Assembly: GCA_949752745.1 (NCBI GenBank)
Contig: OX457027.1
Location: forward strand, 81,461,214 to 81,525,213
Direction of reading: 5' to 3'
Source: Protula sp. h YS-2021
Lineage: Eukaryota; Annelida; Polychaeta; Sabellida; Serpulidae
DNA: 64,000 bases
The translations under genes and the position numbers were made by a program. Positions 14,036-64,000 of this stretch are shown piece by piece; within the stretch, counting starts at the first letter, position 1, and each line of letters begins with the position of its first letter. The notes under the pieces were generated by a model. That model did no database searches. It saw nothing but the letters and a program-made list of their open reading frames with translations, and was not told the origin of the DNA.

Positions 14036-14059
14036 GGGATCTGTATCGACCTCACTACC

Positions 14060-15767: not shown

Positions 15768-15802
15768 TGCTGATAAAACTTTCCTAGTCTCCCTCCTACG
15801 GG

Positions 15803-17946: not shown

Positions 17947-18180
17947 TGGGCCAAGAATGGTCTTTTCGTACCTGTGACCGTATTACTACAACGAGCAAAC
18001 GGTCCTGTCGAATTTATGTCACTTAGGCTCCATAAATTTATCACAACGCACAGTAATAGAGAAAATAATCCATTAGGTAGTGAATTAAAGTAAAATATGA
18101 AGCAATTCGCATCTTAACGCAGTTCCCTTGCTGCAAAAAACCGGCAGCACACAGAATGGCGTGTTGTAGTGACGCCACTC

Positions 18181-34200: not shown

Positions 34201-37200
34201 TATTTACACTATTTACAAACTTTTTATTTACAAACACATTCATTTTTCAATACATTCATCAATGAATACCATTCATTAGAATCTAAATTGATATAGGTAT
34301 CATAGACATTACATTCATGTTTGTAAATGCTATGAAAGCTCACATAATACACATCACCAAACTTTATCACTTTAACAGTTACATGTTCAGACAGTTTCAG
34401 TTCATATCCTTCTTCTAAGTCAATGTCCATCACACGCATAGGTTGTGTCAGCTCAATGGATTTGATGCCTCGTGTAAGCCATATTTCTGTTTCTTTGAAT
34501 TCAAGCGTTAGGTTCTTTCCAATCCAATGCTTGTAACAACGCGTTCCATTCCACTGTGTTGAGGGTGATGTAGTCATAGTTTTCTGTAAGCTCGTCATAT
34601 TGGCGAAATTGTATAAACACGTCTAAGCAGTTCTCAGTCACACGCACTTCTAATTCATTTGAGACTGCCAGGAGAAAGCCAGGTATCCTGAACTTCTCTA
34701 GATGGTCTTTCAACACGGATTGGTCATCAAGTGATAGGACGAGATACTGTCCAAAATGTCTTAGCACAATGTCATCATATTCGTTTCTCAGATATGAGAA
34801 CCCATGCGTAATTGGTTTATATTCCGTTAAAAAGTCTTCCATCTCGTTCAACAGTCAGATGAACTATGAGCTGTCTCCTTGTCTGCAAAGACGTTTTTTT
34901 TTTATGCTCGCAAGATGGTGAAGAGTGGATGTTGTATCACTTCTAGGAATCGTAAGACTGCGCGCCAGTTCTTGATATCAAAGATGATCAAATCTGTATA
35001 TGGTGTATCTGGTACAACTCCCTTATAATCCTTTGGATAATCCTGTAAAAGATTTCTACAGATTTCTACACGTATGTTAGAATCATATTCAGCCACTGTC
35101 ACTTCCACTTTATTTTCAAGTCTACGTTTAAACCCAGCTTCAAGTGGTATGTTTTTAAAGTCTTTCCACACTTCAGGTTTAAACCGATGATAACTTGTCT
35201 TAGAATCTAGTATCACTTCATTCCTCTCATTGACAGTAAGGTAAACACCACCGTTCAGCATGAGTGCATTCATGATTGTTACCTTGTTATGACTTGTCGT
35301 CTTGTCTGCGAAGCCTTTTATCCACTTCTTTCACCTGCTTCTTCATCATTTTCCATTCAGGTATTGTCAGCAAGATACCCTTTTTCGTTGGACGGTTTTT
35401 TCCAGTCCCCTCATCTCTGAGGTATTTGCGAATGTTTACCACACCTTCATTACTTTGTTTCATAATCTTGATATACTTTCCATTGCCTAGAGAAAGCATT
35501 CCATCCCACGACTGTGGTGTTGGTACCGTCGTCTCCACTTTTAATTTCTTAATGGTAGTATCAGGATGTTTCACTTTCATGTCTTTCACCGTATCTGCTA
35601 GAGTATCCATATCCGTTGGTGCAGATCTTTTCATGTTGACGCTTCAGTGTTCACACCACAACTAACTCTCAAGTTGAAGTGTCTCCCCCTTATATACTGT
35701 AATGCCCATGCGCCAAAGTGGAATAGCCATCACTCATCACATATCGCTTGTCATCAAAGGGAGAGAGAGCCACTTTCCTCAACTTCTCCGAGAAGATCTG
35801 GTGGTTATGACTTCGAATGATGTGTCCTGTAGTCATCGTTTGCGTTTGGTTGAACAAACTGTCTCTATACTGCTGATGTTTCATCCGTCTTTGACACGCG
35901 CGAGTGATGCCTTTGGCCGTACGTTTTTCTTTCCCACCATACATCATACTATACATTTTCGGCCGAAGTCCAACAAACTCTTCAATGGGAATGCCCGCCG
36001 TCTCATCTTTCATTTTCCCAAGCACTTTCTTGTTCACGTTGGAATGTAGGAAATGATCTGGCGGATAGTCACTTGTGTCGAACAAGTCAGCATCTTCCTG
36101 CATGTCTTTGTATATATCTTCCGTTTCTATGTCATAACATAGACTGTCGGTGTCGCTGAACAAGAGTTTGGCGTTGGGATACTTGGTCATGATGTAGTTG
36201 TAATGAAAGTGGAACATGAGCACTTTGCTGAGGTCGAGAATGGTGAACCCAACTTGAATGGGTTTATCCAGAAGCAGATCCACTTTGCGCAAATGTACCG
36301 CGGTCAAATCTTCGTTGAAAATTCTAAATTTGTGGAAGGAAGGTTTGGCTACAAGTTTCTTGAACCGCTTTTCCTGGTGAACAAGTTCCACATTCATGCG
36401 CTTTCTTACATTTTCCATGGTTTTGCCAAACACCGAGTTGTTCATCAATTTGAAGAAGTCTTTCTCAAACGGGTTCTTGGCCAACTTTCTCTTTTCCGTG
36501 TTCAAGGAGATGTATTTTGCCAACCATTTGCTCTGTGCAAACATGATGGCACGATGCACCTTCGTGACTTTCAATCCCAGTGAGACATATTGCTGTAAAT
36601 TTCTATAATGAAGCACATATTTCTTCTTGTCACACAAGTTGGGAATGAGCTTTTCACTAGGTTTGCCTTTCATGTTTAGATCTTTCCGTAGCTTCTGACT
36701 ATGTTTTGACAATTCTCCCACTTTCACACATTTCCGTTCTGGAGCCACTGGGTAGTGATTATGATGATCATGAATTGAATATGGGTATTCCAAATCCACT
36801 TCTAAAATGTATCCAATCTCGTCATCTTCATCCACATCCATAAAGTCAATGGATTCTGGCTCGCTCACCCACATAAATCCACTTTCCGGCATGCTTTGCG
36901 ACATAGCCCAGCCATACAAGTTGTTTGCATCCAGGTAAGTCAAGTAGTTGGTTGGTTTCAAGGGATCGTAATCTGCTACGTAGGGGTTATTTGCTTTCGC
37001 ATACTTGTGTGTGATGACAGATATTCCTCCACGTAAACCTTGTTCAACCATTTGGTACATGTCAATGTCGTTGATCAATTCCAATTTCACCTTTGTCGCT
37101 TTCAACATGGCATCCCACGACAGTCCTGGCGCTGTATAGTAGTGAGCAGGATCCAATTCATACGTGTTGAGACATACGTGACGAAAGTTTTCAAACACGT

Positions 37201-40200
37201 CAGCCAGCAGCAACACATCTGATTTCAGGTACAAGTCATGGTATTCGCCAAATGTAGTACAGTGGAATGTCTCCCACACCTTCTGCGCATGCGCATAATC
37301 CTCATCGCTAATGTCTTCTTCACTGAGTAGACTGTAAAACTTGTCCTTGGACGGCAGTTGTGTTTCAGCAAACTTGGATGGCTCATCCACGTAATCATAA
37401 GGGTACACTCCCTTTCTCAACAGTAACTCTTGTTGGTCGCTATCGTGAATGTGTGACGTCATGTGATAAAAGTTGTCTTTCCCTTCTGCTGCCAGGTTGG
37501 AGACCAACTTCTGTAGAGAAGTACTCATGAACTGAAAGCTGTCTGTAAATTTCAGATTGCTCATGGTGAATGCAATATATTTCTCAACGGTGTTGGGAAT
37601 GACTGTAATACTTTCGTTTTTGAACTTTCCAATTTCTTCCATGATCAAATGACTGTCATAGCCTCGTAAATTGTGGAAAAAGACAGGAATGATGAAAGAA
37701 TCTTCAACATCCTGCTGATCTTTTCGAAATCGAAATTGTAAATTGCATTCATTATGTGCAGCTCCGCGGTATTTGCCATTGATATGATCATGATCTCTCA
37801 CACGATCTGCTCCTAGAGGCTCATGACAAATGTAGCAATCTGTGGCGTTCTTATAATGCTCTTCATCTTCACAAGTCATGACTATTTTCTTTTTCTGCTG
37901 TAGACCATGCACAATACGATCACGTTCATATACCATATGGTCTAAAAAGACTTTCACAGCATTATCGCCTCGATATACGACTGGAGCACGTGTATCATAC
38001 TGGCTGACAACCACGTAGGCAAAGCTGTTTGGACGATGATGTTGATACTTGTCTCCTTCATGCTTTTTCGTGAAACATTCAAAGTCTGCATAAATGACAA
38101 ACGGCGCTCGCTGTTGTTTGGCTACATTCTTGAACTTGATGAAGGGTTCCTTGGGAAATGATAAACGTTGTGCGCCATGCTTGCCACACACTTCACGATG
38201 CTTGTCTAACAGATCTTGTCGTATAAACCCGTGAAGACAGTTGAAACAATAAAATGCTGCAGCCTTATGCTTTGATCGATAAGCCATCAGTCTGCTGAAA
38301 TTCTTGATGAGGCAATAATGTCTTGTCTTGTCATTGCTAATCAAAAGCAAGTTGATTTCTCTCGCACTGTTGGCGCTGTTGGCGCTGGTGTTTCGGCTGA
38401 GTTGTATGGGAACAACGACATCATGTTCATATCCAAACACGTTAATGGACACATCATTCTCCTTTTCAAACTTTGGAATGTCTGTAATCGGTGTTGGAAA
38501 TGTCATGCCTTCCACCTTCAATTCGTTCTCAAATGGTGTGTAATGACTCACGCGGCAAGGACTGTTTGTTGAAGGGTGAAGGTGAGCCAATACAGACCAT
38601 AAGAAGCACTTGTTGTCTTTATTCTGAATGTTTAACACCGCCTTTGTATTCTTTACTTTCTTCGGTAGTGGGATAAAACTGCTTGCTTCCAATGGTGCTG
38701 ACGTCGCTGTATGCACTTCAATGAATAATATGTTATCCAACACCCAGCCAGAACCTTGTCGCTCATGTTCATCAAACCTGGTAAATAATTCTTTATAGGC
38801 TTCTGGCAAGTCCTTCTCAATATCTGTTGGATTGTATGCTGCATACGTTGGACTACTGATGAAGGCATTATCCACTTGTTCTACCATCACGCCTTCAACA
38901 TTTGGTGTCATTTTCTTGAAGCGTGCATGCACGACAATGTACCATTTCATACCACGGTTTAACGTTTCTAGCAAATGTCTCTTGATTCGGTTCTCTTGTT
39001 GTCGCATTTCAAGTAGCAAATCTGATCCATCTTCAGGCTCAAACCGTCTTTCCTGCGCGTTTTCACCAAGACTCACTCTTCTGCCTCTGCCTACTTGCAC
39101 TGTCTCTTTCTTTCTTTGTTCTTCATGAGACACATTTTCCATCTCAGCACATGCATGTGTCTCAAATGCATCCAAAGATGAAAATATCTTGACGCATTTA
39201 CAGCAGAGGACTGGATCAGGTCTGTCAACACCATCTTGTACGGTCTTTCGTCTCTTGGCTTCAATCTGCTCAACAAGCTCTTCATGAGCACGTTTCATCC
39301 TAGCTGGTTTGCATGTATGTGTCACGAACACTTCCAGAGATGGAAATGTCACATCACAATCATGACAGTAGACTGGTGCCATCGTTGTTGCTTCTTCAAC
39401 TGCTGGAACTGAAATGAAGTAAAATATACGTTTCACTCTTCCTTTTATACCACTTCAATGGTGTGTTGACTCAGCAGAATGTATCACTAGTTGACTAGTT
39501 GACATGTTTCACTCATGCTTTTATGCTACTTCCATGTAATCAAAATATGGTGTGTAACTTTTCAAACTTGTTCCAAAATGTTAAAATTGCTGACTCAGCA
39601 GAATTTTACTTGTGTATATGAATGTCTTACTTACAGTTGTGAAGTTGTACAGCTGCACTGCTACACAGCAGAGACATCTAGCGGTGAAGTTAACTGACGG
39701 TGAAGTTAAATGGTCTGTCAAATGGTATTCATCCGCCAACTAGACCTGAAATGTGATAAAATGTATTCTCACACACACACACACAAACATGTTTTGCTTC
39801 ATTTCATAATATAGGATGGCCCTTAAAAGGGCCCGAAATATTTTAGTATATATCAGCAGCAGTTATGGGGTTGTCCCTCATATTCCAACCACACTTGACA
39901 CTTGCAGTATCGTTGAGTCAGTGTTACTATGCGGTTGTTCCACATAAATGTAATTACTACGTCAGGCTTCACTGCAGCGATCTGAGTTGGAAATTGTAGC
40001 ACCTCCTCCAAAGCATATGTAATATCAGCTGCTTCAGCTTCATCACGCATATTTACCCAGATGCAAACAGATTCATTCGCTTGAAACGCTGTTAAGTCAT
40101 CAATGATGATAGCTGGTGTGTTATCCATGATGTGTCTGACAATGTCTCTAAGCCTTGAGACACCACACTTATATAGGATTTTATCATGCTGATTCGACAA

Positions 40201-43195: not shown

Positions 43196-43935
43196 CGTCA
43201 AAGGACGCTGAGCACTAGTCATAAAGGACGCTGAGCACCAGCCATAAAGGACGATGAGCACCAGCCATTAACGGCGCTGAGCACTAGTCATAGAGGACGA
43301 TGAGCACAAACCATAAGGGACGCTGAGCACCAGCCATAAAAGACGCTGACCAGTAGTCATAAAGGACGCTGAGCACCAGCCATCAACGACGCTGATCACC
43401 AGCCATAAGCGACGCTGAGCACCAGCCATAAAGGACGCTGACCAGTAGTCATAAAGGACGCTGAGCACCAGCCATCAACGACGCTGAGCACCAGCCATAA
43501 AGGACGATGAGTACCAGCCATCAACGACGCTGATCACCAGCCATAAGCGACGCTGAGCACCAGCCATAAAGGACGCTGACCAGTAGTCATAAAGGAAGCT
43601 GAGCACCAGCCATGAAGGACGATGAGCACCAGCCATAAAGGACGATGAGCACCAGCCATAAAGGACGATGAGCACCAGCCATAAAGGACGCTGACCACTA
43701 GTCATAAAGGACGCTGAGCACCAGCCATGAAGGACGATGAGCACCAGCCATAAAGGACGATGAGCACCAGCCATAAGCGACGCTGAGCACCAGCCATAAA
43801 GGACGCTGACCAGTAGTCATAAAGGACGCTGAGCACCAGCCATAAAGGACGATGAGCACCAGCCATAAAGGACGATGAGCACCAGCCATAAAGGACGCTG
43901 AGCACCAGCCATCAAGGACGTCGAGCACCAGTGAT
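43196..43935. repeat. 23-bp minisatellite, about 32 copies
   Basis: The unit is close to AAAGGACGCTGAGCACCAGC plus CAT, with GACCAGTAGTCAT, AACGACGCTGATCACC and GATGAGCACC variants. The variants recur in the same order in three blocks (43335-43430, 43435-43590, 43680-43830), so there is a higher-order unit. Minus-strand frames (LWLVLIVLYGWCSSSFMAGA-type) are by-products. It lies about 0.7 kb upstream of the FAD monooxygenase start. Confidence 0.9.
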
Positions 43936-48000: not shown

Positions 48001-51000
48001 TTTAATGCAGATCTGTGATGCATTTATCTGTGTATTCCTTTTGATAGTTCAGGTCTTCTATTGGCAGTTCAAGATCTTGTCTTCTCAAGTGTGAAGTCAT
48101 ACCTCCATTGGTGCTAATATATTGTGGAAATTGCAAAGCAAACACCAAAGCCTCCACATAAACTAATAGAATTTATATATATTCACAGCTTACTGCGAAG
48201 CATTTCACGCTGTAAAACAGTAGGAAATTTTTACTTGAAGGTAACGAATTTACAATGACATCAGCTAGACCCAGCCATTACGTAAAACAGATGATATATT
48301 GACTAGGATATCAGTCTAGAGGCGGTGCAAAATGAGAGCGAAGACCAGAAAATACAAACGATATGACACGTAGAAATAGGGTGACCTTTTATATTAGCAT
48401 CATAAAATTTTACACAATGAAATGGCATTTCGAAAAAACGATGAAATATAAGATGAGAATTTTACACCAGCGATAGTATGAAATGCCAAACTTTAAGATT
48501 ATAAAATGGCATAATTATAAGATTATAAAATAAATATTGATCCCATCTAGTTTCAAGCAATTTAATAAATAATTAATTTGATAACAACATGACGGACAGT
48601 CAATAATCGCAAATTGCGAGTAGATACTCCAACAAAATTGGATACTCAGCAACGCAAGAGTCTCGATCAGCTTGAAAATTTCTAAGCTAATCACATGTAC
48701 TTTTTAAGAAGTTTGCTTTTACTGGCATTTGATCTCTTAAAATATGGCTAAAATGATGAATTTTAATTCAGTTTGAATTGCATACAACAGCGTTGCGATC
48801 TATTTATATATTTTTTCTGATCCATGAGGGTTCTACTTTTGTTAACATGCAACAACCAGCCTCACGCCAATACGTCATCAGACACCAAATTGTTGAGAAA
48901 TTGTCAGATCTGAAACATAAACTGCCAAATAAATACTTTGCTTTGTAAAGCAAATGAAATATGTGTGCTTAAACACAAATTTGTTAAACACTTTCAGGGA
49001 AATATTCATGAATTCGGACTCTATACAGCTGGAACGCATGTAAGAGCGATAACAGTCAAATGTGCAATACGCAGATGAATCGAAATTGTATTCAACGGAA
49101 ATTTATAACGATATAAGTAAATTCTTTTGACGAGTGACAAGTGTGAAACACAAATGAGTAGCTGTTACCAGAAAAAAGTAGTAGGGTGAAAATATAAACA
49201 AAAACCATTAAAAGCAGTTTTTACCTGTCAGTGGCCTATGGCACTGTTTATAGCTTGACAACGGCTGATTAATATTTGATTACGTAATTAACGTCTGCTA
49301 GCTAAGTATCAACAGATGACAATGGGTAATAGTTTGGCTAAAGGCTGTCACTAATATTAGCTTAACGATAACTTGCAAATGTTGATAAAATAGCTTAAGT
49401 TTGCGCTCATTCCTAACTCTGAACTGAACATGTCCATGCTGTGCTTGATGCTTTTTGACACTAAGTAGGATATCCGATCCATACAGCTCCGGTTACAGTG
49501 GTACCATCACACTTGAATTTTCCTTAAATCCTGCTGCTTCATTAAATCCATGTTCGCCTTAAGCCAGCTGAAATCGGAAAGGGTTTTAGAAATAAGTTTC
49601 TTTGTAATCCGGCAATTTAGAACTAAGTAATTGTGTTCATGTGGAGTAAATGAAACAACTATAACAACAACTAAACTTTTTTCTTTCGACTGGTAGCAAA
49701 ATAACCAAGAGTGTTTCTAGCACTAAGCATTACAGAGGTAAAGAATGAGAGCTAGGGCTTTACGTTCTAGCGACAAATTATTCTACGCAATAAAAAAATT
49801 ATTTAGATTTGGATTTACAAACCATACTTCTTGCATTCTTGACAAATACTTTGGTAAGGTAAAGTAGCGAAGAACAATATATAACAGAGCATTTACCGCT
49901 ACACAACTTACTGAGCCAATGGCTAGTACAGTGAGCTTATATCAACCTTGAAGTGCCATCTCACTGTTGCTTAAGCGAAGTACTAAAGATCACCGAAGTG
50001 TTATGCGTTGATAGAAATCATAAACGTTTGGTGTTGTATTTTTTTCGTTGGAATTTGGGTGTTGAGGATTAGGATGTGTAGACGTCTGGCTTATGCACGT
50101 TTTCTGTCAACAATTTGCTTTAAAGCTTAATCGAATCACCTCCCGAAAGAAAACTTAGAACACAAATATCTTAAAATACTCGTTCAGCTCCCAAGTCACC
50201 TTAAAATCAATTATAGTCATATCTGATGGGAAAAGTATATAAGATACTGAAGGCGAAACTTTCAAATAAATTTCATCATCTCGAAACTACTACAAATTCA
50301 ACAGAATTTAAACACCACAAAGAGGTGAAAAAAGAAACAATAAATATGGAACGAAGCCATAATCGTATCAATAGCAAAAGCATACCTAACAAAAATGACC
50401 CAACAAATTCCAAAACTATAGACCAATCTCACTTACAAGCAGTATGACTTAACCTGATGATAGGTGCTAATGATAGATGCTAACGTGGTACCTAGAAAGC
50501 AACAACTTGCTAGCTGGTATTCAAAGCGACTTTAGAAGTCAAAGGGGTGCTATAGATCGCCTTGTGTAGTCCTTTCGCTAATGATGAACATGTTGCGACG
50601 GTCTCTTTTTAGCTTCAAAATGGATTATGACAACGAAATCTCCTTTCAGCTACACTATTTCTCATTAAAATCGATAGTATAAAGAGCTATCTTGAACAGA
50701 AATAAAGAGTTCACTCTTGTGGATGACTTCTCGGTGTCTTTTAGAGGTAAGCGCGTGAAAGAAATACGATGTCGTTTGCAACAAAATATATTCGTCCTTC
50801 AAGTCTAGGTAAATAAAAACATTTCAAAATTTTCTCAGGCCACAACCTCAGACAACGTTACATGGTCTTATGTCTCTCCCGAATGGAAATCCTAGTAGTG
50901 AAAGAAATTCCTAGGTCTTATCTTCGATTCTAAGCTTACTTTTTTTCCCTTATATGAAAAAATGCCAGAAGTCACTGATTGTTGATCATTAGCTCTTCTC

Positions 51001-53790
51001 ACGGTTCGGGGGAATATTCTTCATTAGGTCAAACTTAAACTTTGATGGTAGTGTCTAAGGTCCTGCAGGATCATCTTACCCAAAGATGCTTGATTCGATA
51101 CAAAATCAAAGTCTCAGGACATTCTAAACACTTTCACAGCTATTCCTGAGGTTTACAGTTTACATGTTGAGGTCAATGAACAGCCTCTACCCTTTCTGTT
51201 GTTAACGCTTTCCATACAATATGTTGTAAAATTGCTAAAAGACAAAGCTAACAGACAGAATCCACTTCGTCGGTTTTGCTTCAGACTTTCAAAATTTTCA
51301 GACAGTAGCTCTTTCCCTCCGTTGGTTGCCCACGCTGTAGCACACCAAAGCAATACTAGGGCATGGATACACCTTTCATAAACACCTTCTGAGAGGTTTT
51401 TCGGACCCAATGCTGACAATTAACATACAACACATTTGCGAGACAGAAATAAATAAAAAAACAAGCATATTCAAAGTGCTGGTTTTGCTTTTGAACTCAC
51501 CGTGTCAAAATCGATAGATCGTATTTAAACAATGTGGATTTGTAACTCTTCTTGAGCTCATTCACGGTCTTATATTAAACGTAAGGCGCTATTCTACACA
51601 AAATAATAAGATTTGGAAACAAATATTAGTCACATGTGAATAAGCCATTTTATGAAACATAGTTCCATTGTATCAATCCTAGTTTTGACGACTCTGCAGA
51701 TGTAGTTACCACTGTTCAGCCATTGACTCCCACACAAGATATGGCGTTGTGAACTACAGGGGTCAGATGCCACTTTAAAAACGAATCCAACGTTGCACCC
51801 CTCGTTCAGCTAACACTGCCACATAATGCACTCATGAGTGTTGTAACAAGACAAGAGTGCAAAAGGATTGTTTTAAAACACAAGCCCAAGCGAAAAAAAC
51901 TATAAATTTTGTAATCACTACCTGTGAACGTGCGACATTGCATATACGCTGGAAAGACTCGTCGCCAGGCGTCCGATCACGACATGGATTTGGTTGTATT
52001 TGCAAGTCAGAACAACGTCTAACAGTGCGACGTTGTATGGGCGTCTGGAAAAGTCGTTGCATAGCCATGGGGCGCTCGGCATTCCCGATACATCATGTTC
52101 GCCCTTTCATCCAAGTGTCCCCTACCCTCCCTCCCCCTCCACCGTCTTTTGGTGATCCCATGTGCATACCAAACCACTATTCATATGTATTCGCCATTCA
52201 TTAAGCGCCAAAACACTTGCATGACTTTCCAATTTTAACGTTTAAATAATAAATTTCACCTAAGACCTATACTACCATGGCTGCTGGGAGAGAATATAAG
52301 ATTGTTTTTGTTTATCTAAACGACGAGGTGTGGGTGGAGGAAACGATGCCTTGACTTTTATATACAACCATATTCAAGATTTTAAAAAAATGTGGAAATT
52401 GGTTTATGGACATTTGGAGCTCGAAAAGACACAGGATAGACGTCGCAGCATTTTCTGGGTAATTTAAACAGTTAAGGCCAGCATAATGAAAGTAATATCT
52501 TAGAGGCTTAAGCAAGATCTTGTGCCTTGTCTATATGTCTAAAAAGGAAATAAAATAAAAGAATTTGCTATCTAATGTAACATTAATTGCTAAAATAGAA
52601 ATAGAAGAAATAAAAGCAATAAAAACTAGACAAAATTCCGCTACAGAGCGGAATTGGCCCACTTAATTGTAGAAACCACTAAGAAAAATATTTGTAATAA
52701 ATTATGACCAAAAACCTCAAACTCACGCAGTACCCCTTCTTTATCGTCTCGTTAATCCAACGGGTTCAAAATGAATCCAAAATCCCCCAATCTCTGTAGC
52801 ATTGAAACAGCCCAGCATTGAAACACCACATCATTGTATGGGCCCATCCAATGGCTGGGCTAAATCAATACAGAGGCTATTGAAACAGCACATACAGTTT
52901 CTCCCCATCAAACACGACTACACGACTACACTGCCGATGTCATTTCAAACAACATATGTGTTGAGATCGTGTAATGGGACGGGCCGTTATATTTCTTTGT
53001 CAAAAATGTAGAAAATAAAAAATCCGAGAACATTTTTAACATTTAATTATCCTCTTACCATTTTGCTTGTAACAAACAACCACACTTAACATTATTTATT
53101 TTGATGGAAAAGTCAGCTATAATCTCAGCAAAGCTTCTCTCTCTCTCTCCCCCCCCCCTCTTGCATTATGGCACTTCCTTCCCTATTTCAGTGCGTTGCA
53201 TGTGTACTTTCCCTGCACTTGCCTGTGAAAACCACACTTGTCGCTGTGATCTCTCAGTGACTAAGTGCGTTTTTTTTGCTGGGTTTTAGCTGTTGAGTTT
53301 TAAAGTACATATCAGACATACTTCACGTTTTGCTTGTCAGGATACAGGAGGCATATTTAAATATTTTTTCGAGTACGGTATAGAGACTCGACAAAAATTC
53401 CTTACTGACCCCAGCTCAGTGTCCTTTTGCAGGGCAGCTGGTAAAGTCAAGTTGGATTGCGCATATTTTTTTTGTTCTTTTTCCTTTTGGTATTTTTGCG
53501 CTTTTGGTATAAATTGATCAAAACACCGCCGACTGTTCCGCCCACTCCCTCGCTTAGGGGATTTTCACAGTTTTTCTGTGCTGAGAACGAAATTGACTGT
53601 TCTCGATACCTAAACACGGTGAATTTCTCATCTGCAGGGCCTCAATGTCCTAGTTTTGAAGGCGCTCATTTGGTTTGTGGGTATATGCCGGCCTCCATCC
53701 CGGTTATATCCATGCCCCCACCCATTTTTTTGCTGTATATTGTGAGTGCAGCCTTCTACAAATGGGCGTTTTCGCTGTTTCGACTTTTTT
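45070..53790. other. Long region without a recognisable gene
   Basis: It is AT-rich with only short frames. A weak repeat relative lies at 47.4-47.5 kb and another at 52.0 kb. A hairpin AATTCCGCT-ACAG-AGCGGAATT lies near 52635-52657, a CT/C run near 53139-53158, and poly-G at 54058-54074 just beyond. I found no exon with both conserved motifs and matching splice sites. Confidence 0.45.
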
Positions 53791-54213
53791 TTGGTTAAAA
53801 TTGGGTCTTTTTAATGGATGGCCGGGGGGTCTCGTAAAAGAAAAGAAGGACCCGGGGGGTTGTGCCTGCCGTGGGCCATATAGTACAGCGGCCGTGGTGG
53901 ATGCTCCTTGTGCAAATCATAGCGCAAGTTGAGCTGCTCGGTATATTATTTGAAGCAAGTAGACTTAGGTCTATCTTCGGATAAATTTCAATTAGAAATA
54001 ATTGAAAAGAGCGTAACAACTGTCAGTTATCCATGCCACGCAAAATTTGTACAAAGGTGGGGGGGGGGGGGGGCATTTATTACATGAATATCAGTTTTTT
54101 TCCATTTCCACAGTTTCCCTTGAGTTTTCTCAATATTGTACAGAAATGTTATTTAGCTGTATTTATTTGAGAAAATGTTTTATTTTTGTAATCGGCCAAA
54201 TCTTATCCAATTT

Positions 54214-55347
54214 TTAGCCCTCAGCCAATGTTGGCTATTGTTATCGATCTGTCCGTCCGTCTGTCCGTCTGTCAGTCCGTCCGTTCGTCCGTAAACTCTT
54301 TTTGTCCGGACGATATCTCAAAAAGTATTCATCGAATCTTCACCAAACCTTACAGGAAGAAAGTATGTAAGATGTAGATATGCACCGGGGAATGGGGGAT
54401 CCAATTGGCACGTGACCTTCCGGTCACGTGACCGTCGCACTTAAAACTTTTCTTGTCCAGGCTATATCTCAAAAGTTATTCACCGGATCGTCACCAAACC
54501 TTACAGAAAAAATTTTATAAAGTATAGATAAGTAACGAGGGGTTCAATTGGAGACGTGACCTTCCTGTTACATGACCGTCGCACTTTAAACTTTTTCTTG
54601 TCCGGGCGATATCTTAAAAACTTTTCATTGGATCTTCACCAAACCTTACAGAAAGAAAGTATATAAGGTCTAGATGTGCAACAGGGAGTTTGATTTGTCA
54701 CATGACCTTTCCGTCACGTGACCGTCGCACTTTAAACTTTTCTTTGTCTGGGCGATATCTCAAAAACTATTTATTGGATCTTCACATAACCTTACAGAAA
54801 AAAGTATATAAGGTGCAGATGAGCAACGAGGGGTCAATCGGTCACGTGACCTTCCTGTCACGTGACCGTCGCACTTTAAACTTTTTCTTTGTCGGAGCGA
54901 TATCTCAAAAACTACTCATTGGATCTTCACCAAGCCTTACAGAAAGAAAGTATATAAGGTCTAGATGTGCAACAGAGAGTTTGATTTGTCACATGACCTT
55001 TCGGTCACGTGAACGTCGCACTTTAAACTTTTTCTTTGTCGTGGCGATATCTCAAAAATTATTCATCGGATCTTCATCAAACCTTACAGAAAAAAGGATA
55101 TAACGTGTAGATGTGCAACGGGGGGTTCCACCTGTTACGCGACCGTCGCACTTAAACCTTATTTCTTGTCCGACGATATCTAAAAAGCTTTTCATCGGAT
55201 CTTCACCAAACCTTACAGCAAGAAAGTATATAAGGTGTAGATGTGCAACGGGGGGTTCAATTTGTCACGTGACCTTTAAACTTTTTCTTGTCCGGGCGAT
55301 ATCTCATGTTCTGCCTTCAGCCAATATTGGCTGAGGGCTAAAAATCA
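54214..55347. repeat. Repeat of about 1.1 kb with short inverted ends and tandem units of about 146 bp
   Basis: TTTTTAGCCCTCAGCCAA at the left is inverted at the right (TTGGCTGAGGGCTAAAAA). Inside, a unit containing GGCGATATCTCAAAAA, TTCACCAAACCTTACAG and TCACGTGACC recurs about eight times, at spacings of roughly 126-152 bp (near 54310, 54462, 54609, 54752, 54898, 55044, 55170 and 55298). A (TCCG/TCTG)n stretch follows the left end. It looks like a non-autonomous element that amplified its core. Three frames across it are artefacts. No clear target duplication seen. Confidence 0.75.
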
Positions 55348-55932
55348 ATGTTCTGTAAAATATTATAAGATTTATGCTGTAAACCAAAATTCAAAAGTTT
55401 GGGCAATCCTTGAAAGGCCAAGGCTATTACATTTTCCATCATCTACTTTCTAGATTTGAAGCAGTGTTCTCTGAAAAACCTTTTTCAAATAGGCCAAAAT
55501 CTCCGTAATTGGCGACGGTTGTAAAATTCGGTTGGTCAATCTTAAAAAAGAGTAACACTTCCATAAACAACAGGAAAACCACTACCACGACCAATAAGAT
55601 CATTACCGCAACCAGCACAACAAAATGGAATATATAAGCAACACAAATACGACCTGCACATCACCAGCATAAAACGTTACTTGATAAACTATTACTTTAT
55701 CATGTTATAAAATATATATAAGACATTAAAGAACAAGATCGAATAAAGTTTAAAGCTTTTAAGAAATGGTATTGTTTTACGAAATCTTGCTTGACTGACT
55801 AACTTTTGAAAGAATTTTAAAAGCTTATAGTTTTATGTACATTGAAATTCTTTGCTTGTTTTTAAAAGTGATTATAACTTTAATATAATTATGTATTAAT
55901 TAACATGTACAACATGTTAACAGGCAATCGAG

Positions 55933-56109
55933 ATGAGAATTACAAAGGAACATATTGAAGCCTATAAGCATCTGGCCTTAGAAAAACAACCAAATTGGAA
56001 TCATCCAGTATTTGTTGCTTTATCCATCCAAAAGGGTTTCAGCTGCAATGCATATGTTATTTCGGATGACAACAGCAAGAAGGAAAAGAAGGCTGTCCCT
56101 GGAAACACA
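55933..56109 (+). CDS. Possible upstream exon or small frame
   Basis: An AG acceptor (GTTAACAG) is followed by ATG and 58 open codons (ITKEHIEAYKHLALEKQPNW...) ending in TGA. The integrase gene's first supported exon needs an upstream exon leaving two bases, and I found no donor in that phase here. It could be an older start or unrelated. Confidence 0.25.
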
Positions 56110-56219
56110 TGACACATAACATATAAATCTGTCCTTACAAGACTACAAATCTTAAGAACATATCAACGTAATTAAGAAATATTGACTACAAATATCATTA
56201 GAACTATTGTCTATTTTAG

Positions 56220-58389
56220 ACGTGATATGATCCAGATCGTGGAAAAGTTCAATATGTATGTGGAAGAAAACAAATTGATGGGGAAGATTACAGACAAAAG
56301 CACGGGGCAACAGATAGCACTTACCGTGGTGCCGTCCGAGAATGGCTATGAAATTGCTCAGAAAGAACACCAACAGATGGGTCATCTTGGAATAACTAAA
56401 CTTTCATCATGTGTAAGAACGTTTGCATTTACAAATTGGTCCTTTGTAAAACGGTGTGCTAAAGTTTTATTGAGTAACGTAAAGTTATATTTCCTGCTAA
56501 AATTTGTATTATACAGGCTGCTTATACTGTCTTCAGATGAGGCTCAAATACGTAGGAATTCTTTTCGAAGATATCAACCAAGCCGTTAAGGACTGCCACA
56601 CGTGCCTGCTTACAAAAGTAAGCCGTTCTTCATTTAACTAAATTATAACCAACTGGCAACTTAAAATTAGCTATGAAATATTAATTGAACTATCAGTTAA
56701 ATTTGACGAGAAAAAAACTATGGGCTGAAATTGAAGGAATAAAATTATTGCCTTGTTTAGACTAGCAACAAACGACAGGTGCATAACAATCCAATTGAAA
56801 TCTACATGCCGTTTCAACGAGTTGGAGTGGACATCACAGTATTTAACCACGAGGGACATGATGTAAATCTGCTGACCGTCATCGACTTCTTTAGTCGGTA
56901 CGTCATCTTTCGCTTCGCACTTTACAATAGAAAATGAAAACAACGGCAATATTGATTAAGTGAACTAAGTTACATTTGCAAACATTCCATTTTTTAATTT
57001 CTTATTTACAGGTTTGGTTGGGTTTTTCCAATGAATTCCACTACAGCTGACAATGTTTCAAGCATTTTGCGCAGACTTTTTATGCATCTTGGCCGTATAC
57101 CAAAGGAATTTCACAGTGACAACGGTCCACAGTTTACCAGCGAGATTTTAACGTAAGTGTAGTTGCAGTTTCAAAGAGATCAAAGCTTAAAGATGTTCTT
57201 AAACTTTACAAAACATATCTATTGAGAAAACACCGATTACATCTCAGAACATTTTATATTACAAGTATTACATTGTCATTTCATGTTTTTAGCGCTTTAA
57301 TGAAGACAATGGGAGTGGCTTTGAAGAAGTCAGCGCCATATACACCACAGCACGGTGGCCGTTATGAGAGGTTCCATGCAACAATAAAGCCCAAAATTTC
57401 CTATTTTCTACAGCAATCCAAAGACCTAACTTTCGAAGAGGCAGTTGACAGTGCTGTGTACTTATACAAGTAAATTGTCCTTTATCTACACTTCATCTGT
57501 TGATATTAATAACATGGGTTTTTGTAATAACAGTGTTTTTAACAGACATTAATTTTTAATTCTTTGTGTTCATTATGCAATACATGAAATGCATAAATTG
57601 TATCTTTTTAGCAACACTCCACACAGTAGTCTGTCATATAAGGGGAGCACGTTAACACCCTTACAAGTCTGGCAACCAGGAAATATTGACCGCAGCCGTA
57701 GCATCAATATTACAAGCAACCTTCATTCATTAAATTTGGAGTCAATGGAGTGCACTGATCCAGCACCAGAATTTACTGAGTAATTAGTTATAATTCATAT
57801 TTTGTTCTTGACTTTTAGCACCTTTTTAACATATATTCTTTTTGTTGTGGTCTATTAAAATGTTTAAACGTGTATTTACTTGTACCGAAACGGCCAAGAC
57901 TGTTATGTTATTGAAGTTATTATGTTTTTGCTAGGCTGGCCTGGGAACGCATGCAAAGTATGGTGGATAATGTTGGACTGTCCAGCACTGCCGCCGTTAT
58001 GCTAGCGGAACAGAAAATAACAAAAGGATCGACATCCACAGTATATTTTAGTATTCAATATTTGAATATTTTATAGATAATAATTCTTTAACTATCTACA
58101 TAAATTAATAGATTATTAACAATATTAAACAGCAAAATTAAAAAACGTTTCATGAATTGGCAGGGTAACTCTTATTGTCTATTTCAGACAACTCAAGTAA
58201 AAATTGGGGATGTTGGCGTAGTTCCCCTCCAAAAAAAGCTACGCCAGAAAGGTCAACCACCTAATGTTGCGGTTCGAGTTACTGGAGTAAGCAGCAGCAA
58301 CACACTGTGCTTAGAAGCACTTGATAAGGATTTTCAAGAAACCGGAGTGGACATAACAACACCTATTCATATGCAGAAATTCAATAAAT
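56220..58389 (+). CDS. Integrase part: H2C2 zinc module, DD35E core, SH3-like tail
   Basis: The zinc module reads [11 protein letters not shown] ... DCHTCLLTK across exons 1-2. The catalytic core holds Asp in [16 protein letters not shown], then Asp in [13 protein letters not shown], and Glu exactly 36 residues later in [13 protein letters not shown] (DX35E). [13 protein letters not shown], the usual integrase motif, is restored by splicing between 57469 and 57612. [15 protein letters not shown] in exon 58188-58389 resembles the C-terminal module of gypsy integrases. There is no reverse transcriptase nearby. The type is therefore Ginger transposase or the related domesticated GIN integrases. 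Introns interrupt the core five times, and all catalytic residues are kept, which suggests either selection or recent origin. Confidence 0.85.
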
Positions 58390-61300
58390 GTAATATGCAT
58401 TTCCTGCCTCTTCTGTTTATATTTATATAAATATGTATGTTTATGTATATTAATATGAATAACCTTTGTATAAGCTTGAAAAATTGAGGAAGAAGTACCA
58501 TATGAAAAATCGTGTTTTGACATATCTGCATTGTTTTGTTATTTTAGACACGGGAAAGGTAGTAAGGCCTTCATCACGAACACAAGAAAGTCCAAGCCTA
58601 AATAGCTTAGGTTATTTTATTAATCTTTCATAAAGAGAGCGCTGAAATAATTTATATGACAAAACATTTTATACATTTGAAGTATTAAAATACAATTGTG
58701 AGTGAATTTACCTTGTTGCTTTCATTTTTATTTAAAAATTCTTATATCTATAAGTGGTCATTTCAGATACAGAAGCCGACGACTACCTTATTAATAAGAA
58801 TACAGCTAATGAAGAACTTGAAATGACAGGGAAATCGTATCACGAATTGCTAAATGCACCGGAGCTCTTGATTAACGGTATGCTTTGCTACATTAAGTAT
58901 CGTTATGATTCGCTATTGTGCTGAATTGAAGTAATTATAAAAAAACTATCCTGTACAGTATGTGTTTATTCAAGCCTCATATTTTTATTTTTATTCACAG
59001 CTGCGAAGCCTACTGTTACTGAACGTCGTGTTATGGAATGGGTGGACCAGTTTCTGTCTCTCTCTTGCGGTCGGCAACTTCACATACTTTCGCTAATTTT
59101 TTGGATTGCGCGTTATTACCGAAGTCCCCATTGTGACCATTCCCTCATTGCAAACAATGTTCGTGCTGACATTCTACAAATAATATCCGATTGTGGAGAT
59201 CTGGGGAACATCAAAGATCATGGACCTCAATTACTAGCATGTATATGGCCCCATGTTCAATGTAAAAAGCTTCGAAATCTAGCCAAAGAAACACAGCAAC
59301 ATAATGAAGCAGTTGAGATGCTGCCGCACGTCGAAAAGGACGTATTAAACTGTTCAGCTGCCACACCACAGCTTACCTCAACTCCGGTGCAAGCCAGTGC
59401 TGAGAATAGAAGAAAAGTATGTACGGTAATAGTTTTATTGATATGTATTTATGTGTAATTAGGAGCATTACCAATGCTAATGCTAAAACATTTTATAGGG
59501 TTTTAAATTTGTCGCTGCTGGCTAAAACTTAGCTTCTGATCATCATTTGCAGATGTCACTGGGCAAGGCAGCTATATTTTTGTACAAAGGGACGAAGGCA
59601 ATGAAGGTTGAACGTTGCCAATGCAAGGGTAGAAATCCATGCACATCTATGAAGTGTTCATGCTACAAGAATGGTAGACCGTGTTATGACAAATGCTCTT
59701 GTATACATTGCCAAAATACTGCAGAATTAGCTTCTTGTGGTTTAGACAAAGAAGAATCGCCTGCAGAACAGGGTAATTGCTCTTATATTTTTCGACCAAG
59801 GGCTACAGATATCTTTGAACTACGATTTGTGTCATTTGTGATTGTGCATCATAAGTGAAAATTCCTAAATCATAATTCAAAGGTATTGGTGCAATTTCAG
59901 GCGATAACTTACACGGAATTGTCCAATTCGCGAACAATTGCTACGCTGGATCAGTTCTGTGTTCTCTGCGTGCTCAACCATGGTGGCTACAAACTGCTTG
60001 CATCTGGCCTGAAGTCCCACTTGTGGAGAAAATAGAAAGCCTTTTCAGAGTGAATAAAGAATATCTGGAGAAAAGCCAGGCAACTTCTGGGGTAGGCATT
60101 ACACTATTCCTAAATTTCTTATTGAGATGGCGCTGTGCTCTTCTTTCAACAACGAAGAAATAACCAAAAAGCACTGATAAATTTCTCATTTGTTCAGTAT
60201 GAGGAACGAAGATGTGAGTTGCATACCAAATTTTGTGAACTTCTCACCTACATGGAATGGGATGGAGAAGCAAGGCCCGGTACAGGCAATGCCAACGATG
60301 CCGTTGAGTTTTATGAAGTTATGGTGCAGAAGTTGTTGCTCGACTTGGAAGAGGTAATGATATACTATTATTTGACTTAATTATTTAACAGTATTTTCAT
60401 AAAATGAAATCTACGTAACAGTTTAAAAAGAGTTAAAAAATATGTGTTTTGTTGGATTTAGCTTTAAAGTAATAATAAATATTTTTCAGAAGCTATAACA
60501 TTTTTTCTAGATTGATGCATTTGCATCAGGCCGTTTAAGAGCTGACATTGGCATTATGCCTATCGGTAAAACTTACTTAAGAATGTTTGTTCTTGCATGC
60601 TGTTATTGGTTGTTGCCCTATATCCCTATCCCACAGCTGCTTGTTCAGTACTTTTTATTCCGGTTAAATATTTGAAATGTTATTTCAAATTAATTTAAAA
60701 CGTAAATTTGTGTTAATTACTATTGCAAACTGGGGATTGTGTACTAAAGGTCATAAGGAAATGTATATTGCAAAACTGCATTTTTATTGTGTTTCTAATA
60801 TTAGTCTTTCATTTATAGGTAACGAACTGGTGCTCCGAGTGCCAACATTTTCAGAAGTGAATCGAAATGCTCATCTTTTCTACGGCACTCTGGAAGTAGC
60901 CATTGAAAACAGATTGAAACACGTAAGACAAAACAAAGAAACAAATATGTGAAAGCAATTATTATAAAATGGTGTTACATATATAATGTGTTCAACTGCC
61001 AGTTATATTTAAAGTTGTTATTGTTCTTTACAGCTTGAAAAAGATGTCATTCTCCCACCACATCTGACCATTCACCTATGTGGCTTGAACGACACTGAGG
61101 TAACATATTTTTTCGCTTTTCACATCATGTGCATAGATGTGTTAATGTTTCAAGTCCTATTATACTTTTATTAAAACAAATTCAGATATTTTACTATTTT
61201 GCATTTCAGGTGTCTGGTTTAAGACGAGAAATAGCTGTTCCTATCAAGATGCAACCTTCAAAGTTTAACATAGACAAGCACTTCGATTATGTCCTTTCTG

Positions 61301-64000
61301 CAGCAATATGCTATGGTACAGAGGCGCACCATTTCACCACTTTGGTGGCAGAAAATGGATTATGGTTAGTTATCTTTTCAGACCTGTTTTTGCTGTTGAA
61401 GAAATATTATTTAAAGAATATTTAATAGAAATTGTTTGAATATTTTGTTGCTTATTAATCTAAATTAATTCAGGTTTGAATATGACGGAAGCTCGAGAAG
61501 ACAACTTGCAACAAGGATTGTGCATAAAAAGCTTGGCGGACGTGCATGTATCCTTTAAAGTAATAACTTGGACCTAAATTGGATATTTAATTACTTTCTT
61601 TATATTAAAGTCATATTTAATTAGAATATATTTAAGAGCTAAATCAAAGTCACTAAAATACGATTTAACTATTCTACTTATTATTTATACCTTTACACCT
61701 ATTACCTATATTAGACATATGCTCCTTCACATTTTCAAACAGATTGTCTTTTCTACGTTTCCTCAGATGAACCAGAGGGTTGTACTTTCCTGGAAGATCA
61801 GGTGAAAAAATTCCCATGTTGCATCCTGTGGCTAAATGATTATTGAATATAGTATAGATATAGGGCATATATAAGAATTTTTATAAAAAATAATAAGTAT
61901 ATTTTTGATTTGACAGCTTGTTGTAACTGTATCATCGGAAGACATGGCTGGAACATTTGACGACACTGTAGCTCTGCAACCAACTGAGGTATTTAGAGCG
62001 AATAATATCACCCCTTTTTAAATTAGAAATTAATAGTTAACACAAATTGTTATGCAATACAGATTAAACTATTATTAAAATTATTAAAAATATAATTGAT
62101 TAATGGGTTTTGTACACTAAAAAAATAGGTGGAAGATGATGGAGAGTATGATTCAGGCCATCCGAGCAAAAGCGTGAGCAAGGTACGTTCAGGCAATGTT
62201 TTGACAAATGGTAACATATTTGTGAAAACAAGAAATCCTCTTTCAAGATGTTAGTGTAAGACCATGTAAGCCTTTGATATGATATGCTTAATGTTTGCAT
62301 CATACTATTACTAATGGACAATTAATGATAGCTTACTGAATCGTTATACATTCAGTGGTACCAGTAGTAAAATATCATTTATCAGAAAAGCATTCATGAT
62401 TATTCAGTTGAAATATTATTTACAGTCTTTTTCAATATTGAATGTTTAAAAACGTAAAGGGCTCCCATGAGACATTGGAAATCAACCAAGAGAAAAATTC
62501 AGACCCGTCTTCTGTAAAAGTAATTCCTTGAATAATTATTTCCAATAGGACATTTAAGAACTTTAATCTGCACAAGACATTGCAATAATTTACAAATATA
62601 TTAGAAGTACAGTTTAAAACTTAACGAGTCCTAATACGTGTCAAATATGCTGTGTGCGAACTGTAATATCATGTATTTTAGCAACTACAGAGATACAGAG
62701 ATAGCATGAAAAGCAATACAACGACAAATGAAACGATAAAAAATCTTAAGGAAAGTAGCAAGTGTTTAGAGATCGGCGTGTGAAAATATGTGATTTATCA
62801 TATTGCAATTTTTCTTTGTTGTGCAGCGTGCTGTTCAAGAGTCACAAACATCTCCCCCCGTCTCTCCTCCGTCTTCTCAGCCTCACGATGACGACAGTAG
62901 TGACTTTGAAGTCAGTATATTATCCGAAGTAGATATTAGTTAAAGTTTAAAAGTAACATTGTTGTAGAAATATTGGATACTGCACTACAATTTAGAAGAC
63001 CAAATGTGTACCCATTTTACTCAAATTTATATATTTTTCATTTGCAAAAAGGAACCCTTTCCCAAAAGAAGAAAGTTCTCGAAATCAATCTTCCGCATTG
63101 GCATGCAAGAGAACGTGCAAAGAAACACCCGTGAAGATGAGGTAATGTTGGTTCAATATTGTTTCACAAACTTAGCTTTCACAACTAATGAATCTTCACA
63201 ACTATATAAGTTATTAATGAAACAATATGTTTTGCTGGGAAATGAAATTAGGATAATTCAATTTTACAGGAAGAAGAACAGCAGCGACGATGCGAAAAGC
63301 TTTTGAGCGGCATTGACACAAATCTGATAACGCGCATAGAATCTGAGGTAGATATACTATGTTTCTATCATGATATTACAAATATTGTATAATTCTCAGT
63401 TTGATGCCCAGATGTCGGAAATCAAGAAATTTTCATTTCATGTTACAGATTATAGAGACAAGTCAAACAGTTCAATGGGAAGATATTGCAGGACTACACT
63501 TTGCTAAGAAAACAGTTCAAGAAACAATCATTTGGCCGCTTCAAAGACCGTCAGTATTTCTTTCATTTTTTCATTTCAAATGAAATTAGAACGAGACTGA
63601 AAAATGGTTGATTATACATAAAGAGTGGTATTACTTAACTGTTACTTAATTCTTGGAGCTTCTTGAAGGAAAATAACTGTAATGCAAAATTACTGTAAGA
63701 GAAATATTAACCATATTGCTTTTAGTTATAATACACACTGTGTTTACTTTTAGAGATTTGTTCACTGGTCTAAGAGCTCCTCCAAAAGGTCTCCTGCTGT
63801 TTGGCCCACCAGGAACTGGGAAAACCTTAATCGGTCTGTAGTGCTTAATTTGGTATTATTAATATGTTTTAATGAAAGATTTTAGATTTAAAATGTGGCA
63901 TTGTTGTTCATTAAAGAAAGTAAATTGGAATATTAACGTTATATTTTATTGCAGTGATTTTCGTTTTTGTCAATAACGCTTAACTATTTTTGCAGGCAAG
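56220..64000 (+). CDS. Integrase - CXC - ubiquitin protease - AAA ATPase gene, partial at both ends
   Basis: Exons that join in phase: 56220-56412, 56537-56617, 56761-56897, 57012-57152, 57293-57469, 57612-57779, 57935-58040, 58188-58389, 58548-58610, 58767-58877, 59001-59416, 59553-59772, 59901-60091, 60198-60353, 60511-60565, 60819-60922, 61034-61099, 61210-61364, 61474-61547, 61743-61801, 61917-61988, 62129-62182, 62460-62519, 62827-62910, 63052-63141, 63270-63347, 63449-63549, 63754-63833 and 63996 onward. All borders are GT-AG; 62460 has a poor pyrimidine tract and 58610 a weak donor. That is about 3.5 kb of open frame, some 1166 codons, and the gene continues past the edge. The N-terminal start is not found. 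Domains are given in separate entries. Alternatively two genes lie head to tail; phase continuity argues for one, but the exons from 61917 to 63347 are all phase 0 and cannot prove it. Confidence 0.7.
58548..59416 (+). CDS. Linker exons with a helical domain of unknown type
   Basis: Two short acidic exons (58548-58610, 58767-58877) lead to the largest exon (59001-59416, 138 codons). It reads [20 protein letters not shown], then [25 protein letters not shown] and a polar tail. It is mostly helical with a hydrophobic core. I do not recognise it. Phases match on both sides. Confidence 0.6.
59553..59772 (+). CDS. Cys-rich CXC-like motif exon
   Basis: It contains [20 protein letters not shown] followed by [14 protein letters not shown]. 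The spacing CxC...C...CxC-x6-C-x3-CxC-x2-C-x-N is that of Tesmin/TSO1-type CXC modules and of similar zinc modules seen in some transposase-like proteins. It probably binds zinc and DNA. The exon begins with an in-frame Met. Confidence 0.65.
59901..61801 (+). CDS. Ubiquitin-specific protease (peptidase C19) domain
   Basis: The Cys box is [19 protein letters not shown] (exon 59901-60091; the nucleophile is the Cys of NNCY). The His box is [20 protein letters not shown] followed by GLWFEYDGSS (Trp and Asp in place). The ending [14 protein letters not shown], formed across 61547/61743, is the usual last strand of the family. Eight exons join without a phase error. With Cys, His and Asp present it should be a working deubiquitinase, though the usual zinc-finger Cys pairs are not visible. 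Substrate unknown. Confidence 0.82.
61917..63347 (+). CDS. Acidic, Ser/Pro-rich linker exons
   Basis: Six exons, all multiples of three in phase 0 (72, 54, 60, 84, 90 and 78 nt), encode polar, mostly acidic sequence ([30 protein letters not shown], a basic patch [10 protein letters not shown], then a helical [16 protein letters not shown]). Any of them can be skipped without changing frame. The last one leads into the conserved start of the AAA module. Confidence 0.55.
63449..64000 (+). CDS. Fidgetin-like-1 type AAA ATPase, N-terminal part of the module
   Basis: [20 protein letters not shown], then [19 protein letters not shown], then [16 protein letters not shown]. The WEDIAGL box, the hinge and the Walker A (GPPGTGKT) are intact. 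The wording is closest to FIGNL1 of the meiotic AAA clade (also spastin, katanin). FIGNL1 acts on RAD51 filaments in homologous repair. Walker B and the sensor motifs lie beyond the window. The preceding [13 protein letters not shown] also fits the family. Confidence 0.85.

Follow-up and report, generated by a model that had tools for sequence, protein, structure and literature searches.

A giant Ginger-like transposon in a serpulid genome whose gene most likely joins a DD35E transposase to a USP-type deubiquitinase and a FIGNL1-type AAA module

Features of the locus

The window, by which we mean the whole 64,000-nucleotide stretch of DNA analyzed here, lies at C4:81461214-81525213 of the 863-Mb home genome of the annelid Protula sp. 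h YS-2021. Its right-hand part holds a transposon that carries a gene of many exons (Table 1). Other elements are found to the left of it. A Polinton/Maverick-like element at 26447-40790, with 347-bp terminal inverted repeats that are 100% complementary and an exact 6-bp flank (ACAGAC), looks recently inserted; its domains include rve (4.4e-11), NADAR (1.7e-18), and an adenovirus-type protease (4.7e-4, below cut-off), and it has a 1,254-aa open frame. Overlapping open frames on the minus strand at 12913-17982 contain a reverse transcriptase domain (4.2e-10) and are DIRS-like by eye. Two 23-bp tandem arrays with unlike units occupy 9989-11483 and 43200-43931.

Table 1. Coordinates of the transposon, its gene, and its repeat arrays (window positions unless another sequence is named)
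Feature	Position	Strand	Basis
Transposon, window portion; runs past the window end	52795..64000	+	Near-identical copies begin within 5 bases of 52795 (query 2192-2196); flanks differ from those of the C1 copy
Left terminal repeat TGTAGCATTGAAACAGCCCA	52795..52814	+	18 of 20 bases agree with the C1 copy's right end, reverse-complemented
146-bp tandem array within the element; longer in the C1 copy	54292..55277	+	Tandem-repeat scan; comparison with the C1 copy
N-terminal coding exon, conserved initial Met	55933..56093	+	50% identity to locus J (E ~1e-12), 48% to locus N (E ~1e-11)
Integrase/transposase, exons 1-8: H2C2 zinc finger, DD35E core, C-terminal tail	56220..58389	+	Pfam rve 4.8e-16; catalytic residues
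Linker of unknown fold, exons 9-11; exon 9 tentative	58548..59416	+	Exon-chain scan; exon 11 matched in J, E 6e-7
CXC (Tesmin/TSO1-type), exon 12	59553..59772	+	Pfam TCR 2.5e-4, below cut-off
USP-type deubiquitinase, exons 13-20	59901..61801	+	Pfam UCH 5.6e-6 (piecewise scan), above cut-off, profile 2-254 of 254
Acidic/Ser-Pro linker with basic PKRRK stretch, exons 21-24; 21 secured, 22-24 tentative	61917..63141	+	Exon 21 68% identical in J, splice sites coincide
FIGNL1-type AAA, exons 25-28, to just past Walker A	63270..64000	+	FIGNL1 structure 3d8b, 7e-28
169-bp satellite, near-identical units	L023:3721-9733, L024:964-9997, C1 from ~16580632		35.6 and 53.4 copies in the two window-side stretches

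Exon model and reading frame

The model over 56220-64000 on the plus strand has 28 exons, of which 27 are complete and the last is truncated by the window end. All junctions are GT-AG with agreeing phases, and the joined translation of the window model gives 1,152 residues with no stop, so that the in-phase chain from integrase through USP to AAA that had been proposed from the sequence stands. Exon GC is 0.433 versus an intron mean of 0.265 (first 20 introns). The introns are short, with 22 of 27 at 101-160 bp and a median of 140; the longest is intron 22, at 644 bp.

An exon-chain scan, with a score trained on exons 1-8 and 10-20 and an exon penalty of -13 (a lower penalty chains noise, and -10 still admits noise exons), returned a single chain of 25 exons scoring 326. 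At the same penalty, the top score from 20 Markov sequences was 13.6 and that from the opposite strand was 15.6. The chain reproduces the manual model exactly for 21 of its 25 exons (1-19, 21, and 25), gives exons 20 and 26 other borders, replaces 22-24, and omits 27; exons 20, 22-24, 26, and 27 are less certain because of this disagreement. In the scan, the acceptors of linker exons 22 and 24 are weak, and exons 9 and 22-24 are carried in the model as not secured.

When the stretch from USP to AAA was scored alone, its score was matched by none of 200 shuffles and 1 of 60 AT-rich real slices, and by 31 of 136 real slices of any composition. Judged inside the window, the link between the USP and AAA parts is only moderately supported, in agreement with the original prediction, which had called it the weaker one. 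The link is now strong because other copies and diverged loci have been read, as described below.

Continued past the window, the complete reading comprises 33 exons and 1,375 residues with a single terminal stop, located at window-equivalent position 65676 in the downstream stretch L023. The conserved N-terminal coding exon, with a provisional 3' border and splice partner, lies upstream of the model.

Domains of the integrase, CXC, and USP parts

The integrase part has the catalytic residues D121, D179, and E215, whose spacing is DD35E, as in the original prediction. The Integrase_H2C2 profile matched at E 0.0055, below the curated cut-off, and the HQQMGH and CHTC motifs are present. Pfam scans of the gene pieces and of the joined protein gave no reverse transcriptase. 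A single-sequence fold prediction for linker exon 11 reached a pLDDT of 39.7 and gave nothing usable.

The USP domain is complete, as had been claimed, with its match in Pfam coming from the piecewise scan; the joined whole protein gave no UCH report. It carries a Cys box (NNCY), a His box (AHHFT), and the motif WFEYDG, and both the Cys and His boxes are retained in the diverged loci J and N. Compared with PDB structures, the USP part had USP46 as its top match, at E 0.05.

The FIGNL1-type module

The prediction of a FIGNL1-like AAA ATPase held as to type, while the window itself carries just the start of the domain, up to Walker A, the remainder occupying 1.7 kb beyond it. Six exons complete the domain in L023, the first of which (exon 28) starts inside the window. 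The complete module matches Pfam AAA (2.5e-37), AAA_lid_3 (2.8e-8), and Vps4_C (2.3e-8), and over these three parts it is 57.7-67.2% identical to the named animal FIGNL1 rows. Over a 78-residue AAA segment, it is 58-69% identical to those rows, whereas for the FIGNL1 proteins of Mya, Manis, Nematostella, and Hydra the identity to other animal rows over the same segment is 72-96%, the nematode excepted (58-63%). Given this lower identity, the AAA part is not the ordinary FIGNL1 ortholog. In a tree of 311 columns, the module sits on a long branch apart from the animal group, its placement unsure; its neighbor in a 78-column tree, T. cruzi, is likely a long-branch artefact. Among the records compared, P0056 from Saccostrea echinata fuses FIGNL1 to folliculin-interacting protein 1, probably an annotation fusion. 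Scans of viral contigs found no relative of the USP part, of the integrase, or of the Polinton integrase; they gave two weak AAA matches.

FIGNL1 threads proteins, with the N-terminus of RAD51 enclosed in its pore; of its two RAD51 sites, an FKTA-type motif forms the first, according to the available part of a published account (PMC7617353). The AAA, lid, and Vps4_C parts are common to FIGNL1 and the protein described here, but integrase, CXC, and USP replace the N-terminal region and FKTA. The FIGNL1 N-terminal profile gave a best match over the window of E 0.42, at exon 25 just before the AAA domain, in a search that an intron-split match could escape, and neither an F[KR]TA nor an FxxA motif is present in the linker exons. 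The connection to RAD51 made in the original prediction is not supported; neither the FKTA-type motif nor the N-terminal region was found.

Near-identical copies and ends of the element

The element is a mobile unit with defined ends. A search with the linker-CXC-USP protein found seven other near-identical copies, at C1:16.57, C2:44.20, C3:58.08, C3:61.20, C4:23.04, C4:49.41, and C6:5.99 Mb. In the sequence compared between 57481 and 61859, introns as well as exons, identity of these seven to the window is 98.7-99.5%; six are 98.4-99.0% identical over 61843-65845, the C1 copy is 98.7% identical over 61851-67542, and all seven run colinear onward through the AAA stop. All 33 exons are retained in the C1 copy, which shows 13 base differences and neither gaps nor stops. 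The six remaining copies were read over exons 6-33, where three are without defect and the others have, respectively, a one-base gap in exon 12, a lost exon 33 acceptor, and an 11-base gap in exon 11 combined with a lost exon 21 donor. Whole-genome counts given here are lower bounds, as only the best candidates were scored.

A DNA search with the left end (query window 50600-53600) found eight other loci at 99-100% identity, all starting at query 2192-2196, so that nine loci including the window share the left 0.8 kb at 99-100%. The window and C1 copies both begin with the same terminal repeat and have different flanks; in the window, the five bases before 52795 read ATCTC. The locus at C3:22.11 Mb has the same left end but no USP or AAA match. 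The remaining left-end matches, out of at least 47, show 75-95% identity, many with the same start and some starting later (40 best of 1,467 candidates scored).

The right end was located with the help of a 1,230-bp element nested in the array downstream. The right-terminal 20-mer of this nested element occurs at 445 places in the genome at two or fewer mismatches, compared with none for a reversed control, and lies at C1:16593114-16593133 and C2:44185664-44185683. Right ends were read for these two copies, and the window copy is bounded at the left only. The C1 element measures 26,960 bp with GCTAG on either flank, and the C2 element about 20,033 bp with GTCAC on either flank, each an exact 5-bp target duplication. 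The termini read TGTAG (left) and TGTTG (right). Inspection of the flanks for terminal inverted repeats, proposed in advance, was thus rewarded: the left repeat of the window pairs with the C1 right end, continuous over about 20 bp with 18 of 20 matching and patchy further in.

Both the window and C1 copies contain a 146-bp tandem array at the left and a 169-bp satellite array at the right, the latter read in C1 save for 2.5 kb. In the C1 copy, the satellite adjoins the right end, a satellite expansion carried by a transposon. The nested 1,230-bp element, which extends from L023:9734 to L024:963 inside the satellite, has like termini and a CTAAT duplication and is perhaps a non-autonomous relative. 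The 445 right-end 20-mers, together with about three dozen further left-end matches, point to many non-autonomous or older relatives.

Diverged loci with the same architecture

Two diverged loci, J (C2:54.69 Mb) and N (C1:15.46 Mb), carry integrase, CXC, USP, and AAA in the order and orientation of the window. Identity of J to the window is 40-66% for integrase exons and 72-87% for AAA exons 26-29, figures that are lower where an alignment crosses an intron. Splice sites fall exactly at the places seen in the window for 17 of 22 acceptors and 15 of 22 donors in J, and for 12 of 26 acceptors and 17 of 26 donors in N. Linker exon 21 matches in J at E 0.001 and weakly in N at E 0.58; exons 22-24 have no match in either locus. 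Against J, dN is 0.394 over 386 integrase codons, 0.476 over 275 CXC and USP codons, and 0.151 over 136 AAA codons; dS was returned as -1, not computable, which we read as saturation; change at the amino-acid level is limited. Locus N is decayed, with stops in the AAA part, and J is not intact as read, its last AAA exons lying about 7 kb further on.

At least 20 loci in the genome have a USP match, and 18 of 20 also have an AAA match on the same strand, at a distance of 4.2-4.7 kb in 17 and of 20.9 kb in one. The two USP loci with no AAA match are at C1:100.38 and C1:100.40 Mb. Ten of the loci with both are more diverged from the window; J and N were read as DNA and the others were placed by search rows. 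AAA matches with no USP neighbor also exist, for example at C2:41.62 and C5:83.2 Mb.

Comparison with known transposons

Of the described elements that we found, Ginger1 and Ginger2/TDD come closest. The features by which the Ginger superfamily is known from published descriptions, a DDE integrase, an H2C2 finger, and TGTNR ends, are all present here, which would place the element in this superfamily. What follows on Ginger is drawn from the available part of the account by Bao et al. (2010; PMC2836005). Ginger1 resembles our element in its Gypsy-integrase-like transposase with H2C2 and DDE, its TGTNR termini, its possession of some introns, and a C-terminal cysteine protease whose targets are ubiquitin or SUMO. 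It differs in several respects. First, the Ginger1 protease is OTU or Ulp1 (one with PHD), whereas here USP is accompanied by CXC and AAA. Second, Ginger1 has 4-bp target sites and a length of about 2.6-7.1 kb, compared with a 5-bp duplication and 20-27 kb. Third, Ginger1 genes have 0-4 introns, compared with over 30 exons here. Ginger1 also has GPY/F and YPYY motifs; a reading of the joined protein by eye showed none.

Ginger2/TDD, in the same account (PMC2836005), likewise combines H2C2 and DDE and has TGTNR termini, and TDD-4 and TDD-5 give 5-bp duplications, as here; it is without GPY/F or YPYY, motifs that were looked for in our element by eye and not seen. In contrast, metazoan Ginger2 gives 4-bp duplications, whereas the duplication measures 5 bp in each of the two bounded copies and in the nested element; autonomous Ginger2/TDD elements are about 2.8-6.7 kb long with terminal inverted repeats of 45-297 bp, compared with 20-27 kb and about 20 bp; and the available text on them mentions no USP or AAA, both of which are present here.

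Joining of OTU, Ulp1, or peptidase C19 to transposases has already been described, and Bao et al. proposed a ubiquitin-pathway role for OTU/Ulp1 in Ginger1 transposition; an AAA domain does not come up in that text (PMC2836005, available part). The Trichomonas protein with Transposase_11 and Peptidase C19 likewise joins a transposase to a USP-class deubiquitinase, but the transposase belongs to another family and no CXC or AAA is mentioned in that text (PMC2836005). A review of giant transposons notes, in its accessible part, a planarian Gypsy retroelement with an AAA ATPase showing midasin homology (PMC6431247). Fusion of a protease to a transposase is known, and fusion to AAA appears new.

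The architecture integrase-CXC-USP-AAA was not found described in the open-access literature, a scope that leaves subscription papers largely and Repbase wholly outside. In protein databases, one query part had 260 matches, and the 120 of these that were listed span 7-31% of the query and carry AAA domains, with the architecture absent; a second part had none among 8,000 scored candidates, and a third had 16 among 6,344 candidates, which are weak and, to judge from their Pfam domains, resemble retroelements. The absence of the architecture from these databases is weak evidence because the searches depend on 5-residue words in common and on a length window.

Alternative readings

One alternative keeps the transposon and divides its coding content: one gene or isoform would supply an integrase(-CXC) transposase, and a second, borne by the same element, an accessory protein made of USP and AAA. 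We consider this unlikely, although several details speak for it: an in-frame stop at about 58631 and an ATTAAA at 58684, after exon 9, could mark the terminus of an integrase-only transcript, exon 12 has an ATG directly at its acceptor, and intron 22 extends over 644 bp. However, the remaining 26 window introns are all at most 253 bp, leaving little space for a gene boundary, every junction is phase-matched, and exon 21, between USP and AAA, is conserved in J with the same splice sites. On this sequence evidence, one transcript spanning the whole gene is likely, and the gene would most likely consist of the 33 model exons and the conserved N-terminal exon, encoding a single protein of about 1,400 residues.

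The original prediction had weighed a new kind of transposon machine against a domesticated gene. Domestication of a transposon as a host gene, with a captured FIGNL1 half, might account for the many introns (33 model exons compared with 0-4 introns in the available account of Ginger1; PMC2836005), but is highly improbable given that seven other near-identical copies are dispersed over the genome and that terminal repeats and exact target duplications are present; these observations and the conserved architecture favor the transposon machine instead. It is barely credible that a transposon was inserted into or beside a host FIGNL1 so that AAA exons merely seem joined to it, for although the AAA part is clearly FIGNL1-like, AAA exons occur in all seven other near-identical copies and near the USP match in 10 more-diverged loci, and the N-terminal FIGNL1 profile found nothing better in the window than the exon 25 match. 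The two bounded copies contradict the first of these last readings, and the copies at large the second; both were dropped.

Proposed mechanism

We are fairly confident that the element is a giant (20-27 kb) Ginger-like transposon, apparently recently active, with one gene that most likely encodes, in order, an H2C2-DD35E transposase, a linker, CXC, USP, an acidic linker, and a FIGNL1-type AAA module. Some bacterial and phage DDE transposons depend on AAA+ partners. In Mu (MuA with MuB and ClpX) and Tn7 (TnsB/TnsC), the DDE transposase works with an AAA+ ATPase; these partners are separate proteins, MuB and TnsC, which belong to another AAA clade, select targets, and ClpX is a host unfoldase that dismantles the MuA complex. 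Among eukaryotic cut-and-paste transposons, none is known to us that has an AAA unfoldase of its own.

The roles of the CXC, USP, and AAA parts are inferred. The integrase part would cut the element ends and join them with a 5-bp stagger. CXC domains of the MSL2 and Tesmin type bind DNA, and the CXC part may anchor the protein to DNA or chromatin. The USP part could deubiquitinate the transposase or, at the break, host chromatin factors, thereby protecting the transposase or editing ubiquitin there. The AAA part would form a hexamer that threads and removes bound protein, pulling apart a stable protein-DNA complex.

The parallel with TnsC and MuB drawn in the original prediction is apt in that a DDE transposase has an AAA partner, and loose in that FIGNL1 threads proteins, which makes a role like that of ClpX closer. 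Because the RAD51-binding motif is missing, the AAA part has more likely been redirected to another client, for example the transposase in the end complex. This client would most likely be the post-joining transposase complex, as with ClpX and MuA, and the gap may then be passed to repair. We lean, with reserve, toward a one-polypeptide remodelling machine in which a DDE transposase is united with a module that binds chromatin, with a deubiquitinase, and with an AAA hexamer acting as an unfoldase, which at the joint would dismantle the transposase-DNA complex or filaments of repair proteins.

Implications

If this is true, the element would stand beside the Mu/ClpX or Tn7 AAA partnerships as an equivalent that is complete in itself and has been kept up in diverged families. 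Since near-identical copies exist in which the exons read show no visible damage, deubiquitination and unfolding become testable as steps of transposition. The element also shows that a transposon has captured the AAA half of a DNA-repair protein.
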